A DNA stretch of 55,906 bases, from positions 1 to 55,906 of the IMG/VR virus record IMGVR_UViG_3300031552_000006. One strand, given 5' to 3'. Under the pieces are notes generated by a model. That model made no database searches and was not told the origin of the DNA. It was given only the letters and a program-made list of their open reading frames with translations. Below are positions 15,418 through 38,567 of this stretch, piece after piece. A program made the translations under genes and the position numbers. Every line of letters starts with the position of its first letter. Position 1 is the stretch's first letter. This stretch comes from a virus.

Positions 15418-17088
15418 TCAAATAAGTTGGTTTTCTTTTATAGCGCTCATTATTGGTATTACTACCTGCCATACTATTCCATTTCCGAAAGCACGGAGGA
15501 GATCATTTCTATGGGGATACCTATGAGCCAGGACTGGAATATATTTCACGTAAAACATTCCACCAATACCATCCCAGATCCTTTTTTTACTTTCGTCAGA
15601 TATGGTTGTCCATACTTCTTGAATCTCAGGTAATGTTTTTCGCAATAACCCACTGATAATTTCGATGATTCCACTCCACAAAATTTGCAATAAAGCTTTA
15701 CCTTTGGTCTCTTCCGATATTCTTTCCAATGATATTTCAGATGACATGAGCTGCATAAAGTCTCTAAATTCTGCGGGTCGTTGTTGATAGGCTGAAAATC
15801 CTTGTGATGAACATGAAGGTCTTTCTCCGCTCCACATTTCTGGCAATAAGGTTTCAGATATTGCGTGGCTCTTTTGTGATATTGATTCTCTTTCACGACT
15901 TTTCTCGAATTTCCACAAATACGATTGCAATATTTCCTCCGCAGGAACACCCCACGATCTTCCAATCTCCCGTTCATTCTTTTCCTGATTAATTGCTTTC
16001 CGCAAAATTCGCAGTATTTTATAGGGTCTTGTTTGATTCTCGGCGCCATCTATTTGTCCTCCTTTAAATAATTCATAGTTTTCTCTATCATTGAAAGCGG
16101 AATACCCATCAAATATGCAACAAAACTCGGAGAAAGCCGGAGGGATTCGCCTTTGTTTTCCGTCGTATCCTGTGATCCAGTCGTATTCATCCCAAATTGA
16201 ACAAAGTTTCTTAACCTCTGGTCGCAAGTCTTTAAAGTTTGGCTTTGATAGCGTTCCTTCACTTTTAATCCATCGGTTTTGTGATCTTCCGTTGAAGGTG
16301 TCGGCCACATCGCAAAGACTTGTCTCGGGAGTTGATCTATCCTCTGCCGACTGCTGCCGTCCGGGTTTATCCCCGACTGATTCATCCCATGATGGAGTCT
16401 TAAAAGACTCTCCTCTATACTGACACCTCTCGAATGCTTCAACCGATTTATTAAACATTCGCCCCTCGGACTGCCTTTGCTGTCTGACGCTTTTGGAGTA
16501 TTCCACATTGCCATTTTCGTTTGAGTTGACAATCCGTCCTGACTCGTTTTCGATGCGCCTTTTCGATTGTGATTGCCATTGACTGTCGGCGTGGCCCACA
16601 ATGAACACCCTATCTCTTTTGTGGGGCGCGTTTTGGGAACAAGCTGGAAGAACAATCGGCGGGAGGACTTCGTAGTTTTCATTTTCCAGCTCAGTGTAGA
16701 TTCGGTCGAGAAGTAATCCTCCGTCAAGATTGAGGAGACCATAGACATTTTCCAGGATGATATTTTCGGGGTGAGCATTCTGTATGATTCCAAGAGTTTC
16801 CGGCCACTTCCAGCGGTCATCTTTGTCTCCCTTTCTTTTACCTGCGATGGAGACTGGTGGACAGGGAATGCCTGCCGTAAAAAGGTCAATTGTTGTTCCG
16901 TCGTGTCTGTAAGTTTTTGCATCGTCATGTATTGGTACTCCCGGGAAATTTGCTTTAAGCCATTTCTGGCAAAATTTATCTATCTCAATGAAACAATGGT
17001 TTTGATGTGATTGTCTCCACACATATTTAGCTGCCAAGGTGAAAAGACCGAGACCCGCGAAGGCATCCAAATGTTTAAACCCGTCCAT
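15418..17088 (-). CDS. DNA cytosine-5 methyltransferase, 556 aa
   Basis: It transfers a methyl group from SAM to cytosine C5, probably to protect phage DNA. Seen: motif I near residue 10 (DAFAGLGLFTLAA), the catalytic loop near residue 75 (TAGIPCPPVSIAG), the ENV motif near residue 113, motif VIII near residue 158 (APHKRDRVFIVGHAD), and motif X at the C-terminus (NDLLRAFGNGIVWQVV). Between residues 347 and 514 the gene also encodes an HNH protein in another frame, and residues 53-346 overlap a second open frame. The middle is weakly Dcm-like. ATG 17088 is chosen because the upstream small gene ends just inside; 17112 is open too. Confidence 0.8.
   Translation of the reverse strand: MDGFKHLDAFAGLGLFTLAAKYVWRQSHQNHCFIEIDKFCQKWLKANFPGVPIHDDAKTYRHDGTTIDLFTAGIPCPPVSIAGKRKGDKDDRWKWPETLGIIQNAHPENIILENVYGLLNLDGGLLLDRIYTELENENYEVLPPIVLPACSQNAPHKRDRVFIVGHADSQWQSQSKRRIENESGRIVNSNENGNVEYSKSVRQQRQSEGRMFNKSVEAFERCQYRGESFKTPSWDESVGDKPGRQQSAEDRSTPETSLCDVADTFNGRSQNRWIKSEGTLSKPNFKDLRPEVKKLCSIWDEYDWITGYDGKQRRIPPAFSEFCCIFDGYSAFNDRENYELFKGGQIDGAENQTRPYKILRILRKAINQEKNEREIGRSWGVPAEEILQSYLWKFEKSRERESISQKSHAISETLLPEMWSGERPSCSSQGFSAYQQRPAEFRDFMQLMSSEISLERISEETKGKALLQILWSGIIEIISGLLRKTLPEIQEVWTTISDESKKRIWDGIGGMFYVKYIPVLAHRYPHRNDLLRAFGNGIVWQVVIPIMSAIKENQLI
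15546..16049 (-). CDS. HNH endonuclease nested in the methyltransferase gene, 167 aa
   Basis: A typical phage HNH protein: zinc-binding pairs YCEFCG and YCQKCG, the HNH core LHVHHKDFQPINNDPQ followed by CSSCHLKYH, and a C-terminal zinc module YCKFCG ending in KKYGQPYLTK. Its ATG has AAAGGAGG 8 nt upstream and follows directly on a TAG stop, so it is translated in its own right. It lies in a different frame of the same strand within the methyltransferase gene, just before motif X, as if a mobile HNH gene had inserted while keeping the host frame open. Confidence 0.85.
   Translation of the reverse strand: MAPRIKQDPIKYCEFCGKQLIRKRMNGRLEDRGVFLRRKYCNRICGNSRKVVKENQYHKRATQYLKPYCQKCGAEKDLHVHHKDFQPINNDPQNLETLCSSCHLKYHWKEYRKRPKVKLYCKFCGVESSKLSVGYCEKHYLRFKKYGQPYLTKVKKGSGMVLVECFT
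16050..16928 (-). CDS. Second-frame ORF inside the methyltransferase gene, 292 aa
   Basis: An open frame of 292 codons runs in another frame of the methyltransferase gene and ends in TAG directly before the HNH ATG. Its sequence resembles proteins seen next to phage Dcm enzymes: STLSWKMKTTKSSRRLFFQL near residue 78, WATPTVNGNHNRKG near residue 108, MWPTPSTEDHK near residue 207 and LSPSFVAYLMGIP near residue 268. Those patterns are also what the +1 frame of Dcm motifs gives. GGGAG lies 9 nt before the ATG. It may be a real overlapping gene or a conserved shadow. Confidence 0.4.
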   Translation of the reverse strand: MTMQKLTDTTEQQLTFLRQAFPVHQSPSQVKERETKMTAGSGRKLLESYRMLTPKISSWKMSMVSSILTEDYFSTESTLSWKMKTTKSSRRLFFQLVPKTRPTKEIGCSLWATPTVNGNHNRKGASKTSQDGLSTQTKMAMWNTPKASDSKGSPRGECLINRLKHSRGVSIEESLLRLHHGMNQSGINPDGSSRQRIDQLPRQVFAMWPTPSTEDHKTDGLKVKERYQSQTLKTCDQRLRNFVQFGMNTTGSQDTTENKGESLRLSPSFVAYLMGIPLSMIEKTMNYLKEDK

Positions 17089-17230
17089 CTTTATCCCAAA
17101 CATCATTGACATATTTTTCTATTTTTTGCTTTTGTCTGCGCTGATCATGGATATCTTTTGAAGCACAAACCCTGAGATATGGTTGCACGATGTTAAACAG
17201 TTTTATTAATATATCATTGTCAATCCGCAT
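17075..17230 (-). CDS. Small protein, 51 aa
   Basis: ATG at 17230 overlaps the end of the VRR-NUC gene, with AGGTGA upstream; the TAA lies inside the start of the methyltransferase. The product (MRIDNDILIKLFNIVQPYLR then a basic helix) has no recognised family. Its tight overlaps on both sides argue that it is translated. Confidence 0.55.
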   Translation of the reverse strand: MRIDNDILIKLFNIVQPYLRVCASKDIHDQRRQKQKIEKYVNDVWDKDGRV

Positions 17231-19952: not shown

Positions 19953-20126
19953 TTATAGAGATTCAATTTTTTGAACCATATTATTGATTTTCTCGGCAAG
20001 AAATTTGCCGACATGCTCATCCTTGCGCACATAGTATAATTGCCGTTTAGAGATACCAATTTTCTTGGCGAGATCATCATGTGAACATTTATAAAATTCC
20101 AATAATCTATCAATTTGTTTTTCCAT
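19953..20126 (-). CDS. Small helix-turn-helix regulator, 57 aa
   Basis: MEKQIDRLLEFYKCSHDDLA followed by KKIGISKRQLYYVRK is an XRE/Cro-like helix-turn-helix, and the rest is a short dimerisation helix. ATG 20126 has AGGA 8 nt upstream; the open frame to 20168 lacks a site. It is transcribed away from the promoter at 20214-20242, and a 30-bp palindrome lies between them, so it probably represses that promoter and perhaps its own. Confidence 0.8.
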   Translation of the reverse strand: MEKQIDRLLEFYKCSHDDLAKKIGISKRQLYYVRKDEHVGKFLAEKINNMVQKIESL

Positions 20127-20182
20127 AAAACAAATCCTAAATGAAATTATTGCAGAAATCAAGAACAAAATTAATTTGTATA

Positions 20183-20212
20183 AAAATAATCTGCAATCTT
20201 TGCAATTATTTT
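20183..20212. promoter_or_regulatory. Palindromic operator
   Basis: AAAATAAT and ATTATTTT arms enclose TGCAA and TTGCA half-sites (one-base asymmetry). It lies one base upstream of the -35 of the plus promoter and 57 bp upstream of the HTH gene, the natural binding site for that protein. A TATTGCAGAAAT variant near 20147 may be a weaker site. Confidence 0.7.
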
Positions 20213-20213
20213 C

Positions 20214-20242
20214 TTGACATCATTTTTTGATGAGTGTATCTT
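20214..20242 (+). promoter_or_regulatory. Strong promoter of the main early plus operon
   Basis: TTGACA (20214-20219), 17 bp, TATCTT (20237-20242). Predicted transcription start is near 20249, a few bases before the structured RNA at 20256-20330. The operator overlaps its upstream edge. Confidence 0.8.
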
Positions 20243-20255
20243 ATTAAATATAAAA

Positions 20256-20330
20256 GCTGTGGGAATGCACAGCCTGGCGGGGAGATGCCCCTAACCTAGA
20301 AGCCCCCAGTTTTACGGGGGGAGCATTCAC
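20256..20330 (+). ncRNA. Orphan omegaRNA-like RNA (IS200/IS605 right-end type)
   Basis: The 75 nt contain the layout of the 3' part of TnpB guide RNAs: an opening GCTGTG/CACAGC hairpin with GGGAATGCAC, a GGGG/CCCC hairpin (near 20278-20291), the AGAAGCCCCC...GGGGGGAG terminal hairpin (20299-20322), and the ending ATTCAC. GCATTCAC at the end can pair back to GTG-GAATGC at the start with a 2-nt bulge. In TnpB systems the guide follows directly, here from 20331. No TnpB-like gene is in the genome. The resemblance is from memory of such ends, not from a search. Confidence 0.6.
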
Positions 20331-20365
20331 ATTCGTATTTAGATAACTTTTTAAATGATTTAATA

Positions 20366-20438
20366 TGCGTGGTGGAAAAACGGTAATTCGCCAGCCTCAT
20401 AAACTGGAGATCCGGGTCCGAATCCCGGCCACGCTACC
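20366..20438 (+). tRNA. tRNA with CAT anticodon (Met-type), no 1-72 pair
   Basis: Cloverleaf: acceptor GCGTGG with CCACGC, D-arm GAA/TTC with a GG-containing loop, anticodon stem CCAGC/ACTGG with loop CTCATAA (anticodon CAT), T-arm CCGGG-TCCGAAT-CCCGG. Positions 1 and 72 would be T and T, a mismatch as in bacterial initiator tRNAs, and the D-stem has A11-T24, also an initiator trait. The anticodon stem lacks the three G-C pairs of initiators. CCA is not fully encoded. Confidence 0.75.
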
Positions 20439-20477
20439 TACAGAATGTTAGGAAAATATAAATGTTATCATGCACCA

Positions 20478-20496
20478 GGCGGGGGAAAGACCCGCC
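20478..20496 (+). other. Intergenic hairpin after the first tRNA
   Basis: GGCGGG/CCCGCC 6-bp stem with a 7-nt loop, no T-run. It lies between the tRNA and the next gene and may help tRNA processing or protect the mRNA end. Confidence 0.4.
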
Positions 20497-20513
20497 ACAA
20501 ACACGGAGGGAAC

Positions 20514-20741
20514 ATGATAATACAATTTGATGAAATCAGCCTCAAAGGCCGAAAATCAGGCATTTGTCCAAAATGTGGGGAACGTGCTAAAAGATCTTTT
20601 AAGTTTTATCAGACCCTTAGTATATTTAATAAGAATAAAAATGGATTTGTTAAAACAGAAAAAGAAATAATGGAGGAAAATACAAAAGCTTATCTAAAAT
20701 GGGCGAAGACTCCGACATATCATGCCAAGTGTGAGGACTAA
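20514..20741 (+). CDS. Small zinc-ribbon-like protein, 75 aa
   Basis: ATG 20514 with GGAGG 4 nt upstream. The product carries one CPKCG pair near residue 17 and ends HAKCED, so a metal site is possible. No named family. A longer open frame to 20445 would overlap leader and hairpin and lacks a site. Confidence 0.6.
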   Translation: MIIQFDEISLKGRKSGICPKCGERAKRSFKFYQTLSIFNKNKNGFVKTEKEIMEENTKAYLKWAKTPTYHAKCED

Positions 20742-20831
20742 ATGACAGAACAATTTATGGGCTTGGGGAGAGATAAGAATCGGTCAAAAGGAGTAGTATC
20801 AGGGTCATTAACAATGGGTACAGGATTTTAG
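20742..20831 (+). CDS. Possible small peptide gene, 29 aa
   Basis: ATG directly follows the preceding TAA, with GAGG 5 nt upstream; TAG ends at the first bases of the second tRNA. The peptide MTEQFMGLGRDKN... is G-, S- and T-rich. It may be no more than a spacer. Confidence 0.3.
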   Translation: MTEQFMGLGRDKNRSKGVVSGSLTMGTGF

Positions 20832-20904
20832 CGGGGTGGCCAAGAGGTTAAGGCTCCGGTCTCATACGCCGGTATCGGCAGTTCGAATCTGCCCCCCGCA
20901 ACCA
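20830..20904 (+). tRNA. tRNA with CAT anticodon (Met-type), CCA encoded
   Basis: Acceptor GCGGGG with CCCCGC, D-arm GCC/GGC with GG in the loop, anticodon stem CCGGT/GCCGG with loop CTCATAC, T-arm GGCAG-TTCGAAT-CTGCC, then CCCCGCAACCA, identical to the 3' end of E. coli initiator tRNA. Positions 1 and 72 would be A and A, unpaired. C11-G24 is the elongator-type pair. The function could be initiator, elongator Met or lysidine-type Ile. Confidence 0.8.
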
Positions 20905-35929: not shown

Positions 35930-37102
35930 TTAAGGTCTACTCCTGTATATTTTCCCATTCGGATATGTCCCGGCCAGAGCAATCCCATCACCTAGATAAG
36001 ATAACGAACGAATATATGTTTCCGAACCCTGCTGACCCAGATCGGTCCAGGTTGCACCATAATCAACGCTCCTGTATATTTTACCATTAAGAGCTGTACC
36101 CGCCAGGGCAATACCATTGCCTAGATAAGATAACGAAAAAATATATGTTTCCGAACCCTGCTGACCCAGATCGGTCCAGGTTGCACCATAATCAACGCTC
36201 CTATATATTTTACCATTCGGATATGTCCCGGCCAGAGCAATACCATTGCCTAGATAAGATAACGAAAAAATATATGTTTCCGAACCCTGCTGACCCAGAT
36301 CGGTCCAGGTTGCACCATAATCAACGCTCCTGTATATTTTCCCATTCGGATATGTCCCGGCCAGAGCAATCCCATTGCCGAGATAAGACAACGAAAAAAT
36401 TTGTGTTTCCGAACCCTGCTGACCCAGATCGGTCCAGGTTGCACCATAATCAACGCTCCTGTATATTTTACCATTAGGATATGTACCCGCCAGGGCAATC
36501 CCATTGCCGAGATAAGACAACGAACGAATATATGTTTCCGAACCCTGCTGACCCAGATCGGTCCAGGTTGCACCATAATCAACGCTCCTATATATTTTCC
36601 CATTCGGATATGTCCCGGCCAGAGCAATCCCATTGCCGAGATAAGACAACGAAAGAATTTGTGTTTCCGAACCCTGCTGACCCAGATCGGTCCAGGTTGC
36701 ACCATAATCAACGCTCCTGTATATTTTACCATTAAGAGCTGTACCCGCCAGGGCAATACCATTGCCGAGATAAGACAACGAAAGAATTTGTGTTTCCGAA
36801 CCCTGCTGACCCAGATCGGTCCAGGTTGCACCAATACTTTCCTGTATGCCTGGCAACATTCCGTCATGCTGAAGAAGTAAGTCATCTTTATCAGTCAATT
36901 CAAAATTTACTCTGGCCCCAAATTTAGTAATAGCCCCAGTTCCACCATTGGCAATCGGAACTGTGTCACCTGCAACATATCGACCAAGGGCAGTAATATC
37001 ACCAGTACCATTTTCTATCGCTTTTACGGGTATTTTATCGCCAGCATGGACGGTGGTTACTAAAGATAGTAAAATCAATGTAAAATATAATATTTTTCTC
37101 AT
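35930..37102 (-). CDS. Exported BNR-repeat protein, predicted seven-bladed propeller, 390 aa
   Basis: A signal peptide (MRKILYFTLILLSLVTTVHA) leads to about 85 unique residues and then seven 43-residue repeats, each with the Asp-box RSVDYGATW and an NGIALAG strand. Seven such units make a closed beta propeller of the sialidase type. Repeats are nearly identical; two neighbouring sites vary (Q or Y; L, R or F) and one TALNG/TYPNG site. AAGGAG precedes the ATG. It may bind host glycans or be an exported virion-associated protein. The signal peptide is unusual for a tail protein. Confidence 0.75.
   Translation of the reverse strand: MRKILYFTLILLSLVTTVHAGDKIPVKAIENGTGDITALGRYVAGDTVPIANGGTGAITKFGARVNFELTDKDDLLLQHDGMLPGIQESIGATWTDLGQQGSETQILSLSYLGNGIALAGTALNGKIYRSVDYGATWTDLGQQGSETQILSLSYLGNGIALAGTYPNGKIYRSVDYGATWTDLGQQGSETYIRSLSYLGNGIALAGTYPNGKIYRSVDYGATWTDLGQQGSETQIFSLSYLGNGIALAGTYPNGKIYRSVDYGATWTDLGQQGSETYIFSLSYLGNGIALAGTYPNGKIYRSVDYGATWTDLGQQGSETYIFSLSYLGNGIALAGTALNGKIYRSVDYGATWTDLGQQGSETYIRSLSYLGDGIALAGTYPNGKIYRSRP
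35935..36833. repeat. Seven tandem 129-bp repeats
   Basis: The DNA repeats with a 129-bp period (for example around 36024, 36153 and 36282) and only a few changed bases per unit. The repeats leave several other frames open on both strands; these are shadows. Copy number may vary or be mis-assembled. Confidence 0.85.
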
Positions 37103-38085: not shown

Positions 38086-38567
38086 ATTCCGCCTCCTATA
38101 CAATCAAAAGTTGCGATTCTATAACCTGAAAGTATCCATGTCGGACTGGGTAATTTAAGATAGGTCCCTGCATTGATTGTTATTGTATGACCACTGTTTG
38201 CCAAAATATAAATTGTCTCACCTTTTGAAAGTCCCGAGATTTGATCAAGATCATCTGCGGTACCTGATTCCGATGATATAGTTACCATCCCTGAACCGGA
38301 TACAGTTATTATGCCACTCAATATCGTAGTATCGACCGGGTCATTCATTCCTTGTGCTGAACTTACTGAATATGAAATAGCAGATGCAATTACACCACTC
38401 GATAAGATAAATTTCTCAAGATCCCTAAAGGTAACAAATTTATCGAGAAAATAACCGGAACTGTCTTTTTGGCCAATATACCCCAATCCAATCTCAAGAT
38501 TTTTTTTAATGGCCAGGATACATTTTTTTATATCAGTTATTCCCGGTATGGCTGAGAAAGAACTCAT
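38049..38567 (-). CDS. Fibre-region hypothetical protein, 172 aa
   Basis: The C-terminal half is beta-rich (SGIITVSGSGMVTISSESG). It overlaps the next gene by 37 bases and the previous by 4 (ATGA). Probably a fibre-associated structural protein by position. Confidence 0.6.
   Translation of the reverse strand: MSSFSAIPGITDIKKCILAIKKNLEIGLGYIGQKDSSGYFLDKFVTFRDLEKFILSSGVIASAISYSVSSAQGMNDPVDTTILSGIITVSGSGMVTISSESGTADDLDQISGLSKGETIYILANSGHTITINAGTYLKLPSPTWILSGYRIATFDCIGGGICVMRTHEANRS

Follow-up and report, generated by a model that had tools for sequence, protein, structure and literature searches.

TnpB guide RNAs are familiar as transposon parts that lie alongside the nuclease gene, and derivatives without tnpB are regarded as debris. 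The ISDra2-type omegaRNA (reRNA) overlaps the C-terminal codons of tnpB, has a terminal hairpin and a 3' guide, and pairs its stem-1 loop with the bases before the guide (PMC10097598, PMC10278001). The pseudoknot in the ISDra2 structure joins UUC at positions -5 to -3 with GAA, and the core RNA works without the 5' extension (PMC10097598). PATEs of Haloquadratum (PMC3119063) and Halanaerobium (PMC7290912) have lost the body of tnpB and kept the right end, the non-autonomous IS605 elements of Halanaerobium retaining the last 58 nt of the gene (PMC7290912). Prophages carry TldR guide-RNA cassettes, and a locus with a broken tldR may still supply guides in trans (PMC13418256). Against plasmids that lack the insertion, TnpB of IS elements works as a gene drive (PMC11870625); its guide equals the flank of the insertion, and copies without the insertion would therefore be cut.

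The window analysed here is the whole of a 55,906-nt IMG/VR virus record (IMGVR_UViG_3300031552_000006). The same 127 bp open and close the record, and this direct terminal repeat indicates that the phage genome is probably complete. It encodes a podovirus-type portal, a terminase and internal virion proteins; the terminase relatives are distant, and a search with the region 20183-20438 revealed no cultivated relative. A first-pass annotation had placed in this region an orphan omegaRNA of the IS200/IS605 right-end type, and direct reading of 20183-20438 recovered all of the sequence features it had described.

The RNA shares with the ISDra2-type omegaRNA the pairing of the stem-1 loop, the terminal hairpin, the tnpB codon overlap and the 3' guide, and differs in that its genome lacks tnpB and that it has a predicted short transcription unit of its own. 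Its scaffold is 84 nt in length, compared with 116 nt in ISDra2. The deletion of tnpB with retention of the right end is shared with PATEs; unlike these, the RNA is single-copy, has no recognisable left end and lies in a phage, and a fusion of promoter to guide RNA is evident. Like the TldR cassettes it is a TnpB-type guide RNA borne by a phage, but this phage encodes no TldR or TnpB relative and the locus has no fliC-type target. As in the plasmid gene drive, the guide would correspond to the insertion flank; tnpB acts in cis there, and here it would have to be supplied in trans.

Identification of the omegaRNA scaffold

The scaffold and its parts were assigned as follows.

20247-20330, plus strand: omegaRNA scaffold (TnpB guide RNA minus the guide), 84 nt; covariance models R2 and R1, covariation
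20247-20294, plus strand: relict TnpB C-terminal frame, N-I-K-A-V-G-M-H-S-L-A-G-R-C-P-stop; direct translation
20255-20274, plus strand: stem 1, arms 20255-20260 and 20269-20274, loop GGGAATGC at 20261-20268; covariation
20263-20268, plus strand: pseudoknot 5' strand GAATGC within the stem-1 loop, partner 20323-20328
20279-20291, plus strand: stem 2, hairpin GGGG-AGATG-CCCC; sequence, minimum free energy fold
20303-20321, plus strand: stem 3, hairpin CCCCC-loop-GGGGG, immediately 5' of AGCATTCAC; fold, covariation
20323-20328, plus strand: pseudoknot 3' strand GCATTC, ending two bases 5' of the guide
20331-20346, plus strand: putative 16-nt guide ATTCGTATTTAGATAA; position only

Covariance model R2 was built from seven tnpB-linked omegaRNAs, the window being excluded from its training. 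In a search of 223 kb its match to the window (20247-20330) scored 60.7 bits (E = 4.6e-13); the E-values of both models are approximate owing to short calibration. Model R1, whose training set includes the window, scored the scaffold at 74.6 bits. The covariance-model search proposed with the first-pass annotation therefore returned a match. In an Rfam search of the window only tRNAs reached the gathering threshold and matches below it were at chance level, no family being found for the RNA. The scaffold starts with AATAT at 20247 and ends at 20330, its last bases being GGGGGGAGCATTCAC. The annotation had drawn a 75-nt RNA at 20256-20330; its assignment as an omegaRNA of the right-end type stands, while the conserved RNA is longer (20247-20330).

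In the window, 20 of the 22 modelled pairs are formed. Stem 1 contributes five of its six pairs and shows two-sided changes at five of six among 13 sequences. All six pairs of the pseudoknot are present, and its core joins UUC at -5 to -3 with GAA of the stem-1 loop, the equivalent of that in ISDra2. Since the pseudoknot is almost invariant across the aligned set, it counts as conservation and not as covariation. In alignment A4 of 13 RNAs, which was fitted to the model and hence favours the structure, 95% of cells are paired, two-sided change occurs at 13 pairs, and there are 46 compensatory cells versus 13.3 ± 3.1 in shuffles, none of the 500 shuffles reaching as many. A4 agrees in direction with the MAFFT alignment A1 and with controls by shuffling and sliding. 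The compensatory changes in the window RNA may be older than the loss of tnpB. The thermodynamic fold is unremarkable (z = -0.8 and -1.6); thus, free-energy folding was not used as evidence, and alone it would have missed the RNA.

The codons of the window read NIKAVGMHSLAGRCP-stop, open to the stop and in the same frame as NILxLGMQSLG; intact TnpB proteins end in NILRLGMQSLGL (L137) and NILTLGMQSLG (L117). Because these codons are in the frame of the TnpB C-terminus, the RNA derives from the 3' end of tnpB, and the overlap with the coding sequence is present as a relic only. The R2 match, the pseudoknot, the covariation and the relict TnpB codons together make a chance likeness untenable. The RNA fits the model of tnpB-linked omegaRNAs and shows all the sequence and structural features of a TnpB omegaRNA. 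Hence, 20247-20330 is almost certainly a genuine scaffold of the IS200/IS605 (IS1341-like) kind, and the annotated orphan RNA is borne out by the excluded-window model, covariation, pseudoknot and relict C-terminal frame.

Neither the TNB (PF07282) and OrfB (PF01385) domains of TnpB nor the Y1 transposase (PF01797) were found in the window record or its close relative. Likewise, PF07282 and PF01385 revealed no gene for a nuclease-dead TnpB (TldR) beside the guide RNA, in agreement with the earlier statement that the genome lacks TnpB and its dead relatives. PADLOC and Pfam applied to neighbouring genes showed no RNA-guided or defence partner except an orphan C5 cytosine methyltransferase (15418-17112, 564 aa), which probably modifies the phage's own DNA. 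Elsewhere in the window, a gene for a BNR/Asp-box repeat protein (35930-37102) contains in-frame tandem repeats of ~129 bp; its matches to the relative overlap one another, which suggests that the number of repeats varies.

Promoter, operators and the exchangeable module

Upstream and downstream of the RNA the following features were located.

19953-20126, minus strand: divergent small HTH-like protein, putative repressor; weak Pfam matches
19956-20890, no strand: exchangeable module comprising HTH gene, operators, promoter, omegaRNA and tRNAs; blastn against the relative
20183-20212, no strand: imperfect palindrome AAAATAAT(C)TGCA-ATCTT-TGCAATTATTTT, probable operator; sequence
20214-20242, plus strand: sigma70-type promoter TTGACA-17-TATCTT, predicted start ~20249; 10 of 12 consensus bases
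20218-20232, no strand: palindrome CATCATTTTTTGATG within the spacer of the promoter, possible operator; sequence, present once in the genome
20366-20438, plus strand: tRNA-Met (CAT), directly 3' of the guide region

The consensus promoter reported earlier is in place, with TTGACA at 20214-20219, a 17-nt spacer and TATCTT at 20237-20242. It is the best of four sites in a simple promoter scan; shuffles also give 4.0 sites, which leaves the promoter without significance of its own. The long palindrome described at its edge is present but imperfect, with 12-bp arms and one bulged C. The divergent HTH gene was found as well, encoding 57 aa from ATG or 71 aa from TTG at 20168; the product is HTH-like by weak Pfam matches below the curated cut-offs (PF13022, E 0.002). 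Judged from this layout, control of the omegaRNA promoter by a repressor is plausible, and 5' maturation of tRNA-Met may set the 3' end of the omegaRNA. Descent of the promoter from that of tnpB was considered, and the ATTTTCTTGAC common to L117 is too little to claim it. The window has two tRNA genes with the CAT anticodon (20366-20438 and 20830-20904), and the relative keeps one in place despite the module swap.

The only close relative in IMG/VR (L003/G001) is 96-99% identical across much of the genome. In the blastn comparison homology stops at 19955 and restarts at 20891, and between these points the relative has a different HTH-like gene, TTGACA promoter and structured leader, together with a tRNA-Met. 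The omegaRNA thus sits in a module that is swapped as a block, as immunity regions are. The exchange of the module, with its putative repressor, operators and divergent promoter, is seen directly between the two relatives, and the module may be an early-operon leader or immunity region. Comparison with a close relative had been put forward as a check on insertion or loss: the relative indeed lacks the RNA, but the whole repressor/promoter/RNA/tRNA module is replaced. As it carries another module and not an empty site, it does not bear on whether the RNA by itself was gained or lost. Where the window has the omegaRNA, the relative carries another leader RNA, of three hairpins, between its TTGACA promoter and tRNA-Met (L003 2351-2444, minus strand; z -1.8). 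This leader matches nothing in Rfam and neither R1 nor R2, and may likewise be a small RNA that was swapped in.

Relatives of the RNA

A strict pattern of the layout matched only three loci in 257 Gb of genome sequence from bacteria and archaea. The first (L137) has an intact 369-aa TnpB whose final codons (NILRLGMQSLGL-stop) make the motif, the second (L136) a degraded tnpB, and the third (L138) is a phage contig with no tnpB. In IMG/VR a looser pattern matched eight stretches, and each of these is an omegaRNA; four continue from tnpB coding sequence (L117, L170, L172, L174) and four have no adjacent tnpB (L171, L173, which is the same as L138, L175 and L176). Another loose pattern gave four extra matches (L183-L186); these fall within ordinary genes and so serve as a chance control, and the compensated pseudoknot GGGAGTGC...GCACTCAC that was sought occurs in none of them.

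Other candidates were rejected. The first IMG/VR pattern, GGGAATGCAC-N-GAAGCCCCC, gave a single chance match in coding sequence (L002), a 15-base pattern was too loose to use, and an R1 match of 14.5 bits (L135 470-565) lies inside coding sequence. Three R1 matches of 28-31 bits (L179, L180, L182) were set aside; they come from two Elusimicrobiota genomes and one of Atribacterota, have GAAGCC hairpins and similar ends, and are possibly right ends of other IS200/IS605 groups. A 132-kb phage record (G353; L188, L193, L195, L197, L198) has five TNB-domain matches and at least two kinds of right-end RNA.

Nuclease-less guide RNAs in other phages

omegaRNAs without tnpB were seen in two further phage lineages. 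One phage (G351, the same as G350) encodes an intact TnpB of 374 aa, accompanied by an omegaRNA that belongs to the same family as the window RNA. It also has two 180-bp mini-elements without tnpB, which are 98.9% identical (1268-1446 and 38209-38388, both minus strand). By locus, the elements of this phage are listed as follows.

L199 1268-1446
L200 18209-18388
L200 15238-15311

Each mini-element follows TTTAT and has a left-end hairpin and a promoter, TTCTTGAC...TATATT, resembling that of tnpB; ATGCTTA is kept, and the sequence then skips to AATATTTTGAGACTGGGAATGC. They are mobile internal deletions of the tnpB element, in which the tnpB promoter now stands directly before the omegaRNA, and they match PATEs exactly. 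Hence, abutment of promoter and omegaRNA can come from deletion, and a TnpB acting in trans can share the genome. The first-pass annotation had argued from the near coincidence of promoter start and RNA start that the window RNA is in use and not a scar; this argument is weakened, since internal deletion of tnpB yields an equal fusion in G351. The phage offers a natural system in which omegaRNA use in trans could be tested.

The other lineage comprises L205 (= L138) and L207, in which the scaffold lies at one site, behind the same small gene and with no left end.

L205 3254-3327: orphan omegaRNA
L207 4747-4820: orphan omegaRNA

The two are 97.7% identical through the last scaffold base and wholly different from the first guide base, and pairing of stem 3 is kept across two substitutions. 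L171 shares the downstream region with L207, and an assembly join at a repeat is possible in L205. The remaining portal relatives, several of which are fragments, gave no model match. The guide of L207 (AACCTCAAATATCTTAG) resembles AACCTCGAATATTTTAG, which is found after TTTAT just upstream, as if tnpB had been lost by recombination between the flank and the 3' end of tnpB.

Guide and target searches

The scaffold ends at 20330, and the covariance model and pseudoknot support the earlier placement of the guide start at 20331. The unprocessed spacer 3' of the scaffold (20331-20365) comprises 35 bases before tRNA-Met. The target search that had been suggested in related phages was unsuccessful, the best matches to the guide being 12-13 of 16 bases, which is the chance level. 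An exact 18-mer of the guide gave one chance-level match in IMG/VR, inside a gene and without TTTAT, and BLAST against phages and plasmids gave no convincing match. By analogy with the related elements, the motif beside targets would be TTTAT.

A host partner is not guaranteed, as TnpB is scarce in Elusimicrobiota, the phylum of the contig of one orphan: 3 of 150 genomes passed the cut-off for TnpB, and no TnpB was found in the genome to which the contig belongs.

Discussion

The locus is most likely the remnant of an IS200/IS605-type element from which tnpB was deleted and an expressible omegaRNA kept. The best explanation, to which we assign a probability of about 0.6, is that this RNA can be expressed and is usable with a TnpB supplied in trans. 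Whether the scaffold is in fact used in this way or is preserved as a fossil we regard as evenly balanced.

As sequence and covariation show, the scaffold is the surviving 3' end of a tnpB gene whose body was lost along with the left end of the element; with the left end lost, the element can no longer transpose. According to this explanation, transcription would proceed from the promoter at 20214-20242, starting at about 20249 and heading a phage operon with tRNA-Met genes, under control of the divergent HTH protein. The transcript would bear 20331 onward as its guide, TnpB would trim the 5' end, and the 3' end would lie at or before the tRNA. Having no nuclease in its own genome, the RNA can act only with a trans-supplied TnpB, which the host or a co-infecting phage might provide and onto which it would be loaded. 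The complex would cut DNA having the guide sequence beside the insertion motif, TTTAT in related elements. The natural target would be the same phage site without the RNA, and the RNA-bearing allele would be protected in a gene-drive-like manner.

The leftover right end may instead be a passive fossil, transcribed by accident in an operon leader and without function, a possibility that we take seriously with the odds somewhat against it. Internal-deletion derivatives (PATEs) are common and known (PMC3119063, PMC7290912), and the deletion in G351 retains left end, promoter and omegaRNA. The RNA is missing from the close relative, no target of the guide was found, and the structure may have come intact from a recent functional tnpB and not through selection. 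Against this, all helices and the pseudoknot are intact (20 of 22 pairs) though left end, tnpB and transposition are gone, and the scaffold that L205 and L207 share at one site has kept its stem pairing through substitutions.

That the locus is a non-autonomous MITE or PATE moved by TnpA in trans, the RNA being merely its right end, is unlikely. The 180-bp elements of G351 are of this kind, being near-identical copies that each follow TTTAT at a site of their own and have a left-end hairpin and a right end, and the R2 match shows that the right end is present in the window. However, comparison of the upstream sequence with L137, L191, L175 and both G351 copies showed no G+C-rich left-end hairpin and no TTTAT before the promoter of the window RNA, the element is single-copy, and the window genome has no Y1 transposase.

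A decoy RNA that titrates the TnpB of a host or rival, thereby protecting the phage, is possible and supported by the anatomy, namely a complete scaffold behind a possibly strong promoter heading a phage operon in a genome without nuclease. TnpB is not known to restrict phages, however, and the TnpB of G351 with its matching RNA favours use over sequestration there, making this role very doubtful.

The RNA could be a leader of the phage (an attenuator, an antiterminator or an immunity RNA) that bears only a likeness to an omegaRNA. This would accord with the different structured leader before the tRNA in the relative, but is highly improbable and as an origin is refuted by the R2 match (E 5e-13), the pseudoknot, the covariation and the codons left over from TnpB. 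A secondary leader role of the omegaRNA is possible.

In favour of an RNA usable in trans, unrelated phages carry similar nuclease-less guides; hence, phages may keep such RNAs to borrow another's RNA-guided cutter. More broadly, phages could domesticate stand-alone omegaRNAs with swappable guides under phage control, programming the TnpB of a host or co-infecting phage against rival phage alleles, in what would be a gene drive or exclusion system reduced to its RNA; this generalisation is tentative, and we consider it rather improbable.

What is new is a phage-borne omegaRNA without tnpB and without a transposon left end. A probably complete phage genome keeps an intact guide RNA and promoter with no nuclease, and the arrangement recurs in two other lineages. 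As the RNA, TnpB and insertion motif are all readable from these genomes, the question of use is directly testable. If such RNAs are used, a phage would borrow an RNA-guided cutter for about 100 bases of DNA. There would then be a simple path from transposon gene drive to conflict between phages and, in principle, on to stand-alone guide loci like those of CRISPR.
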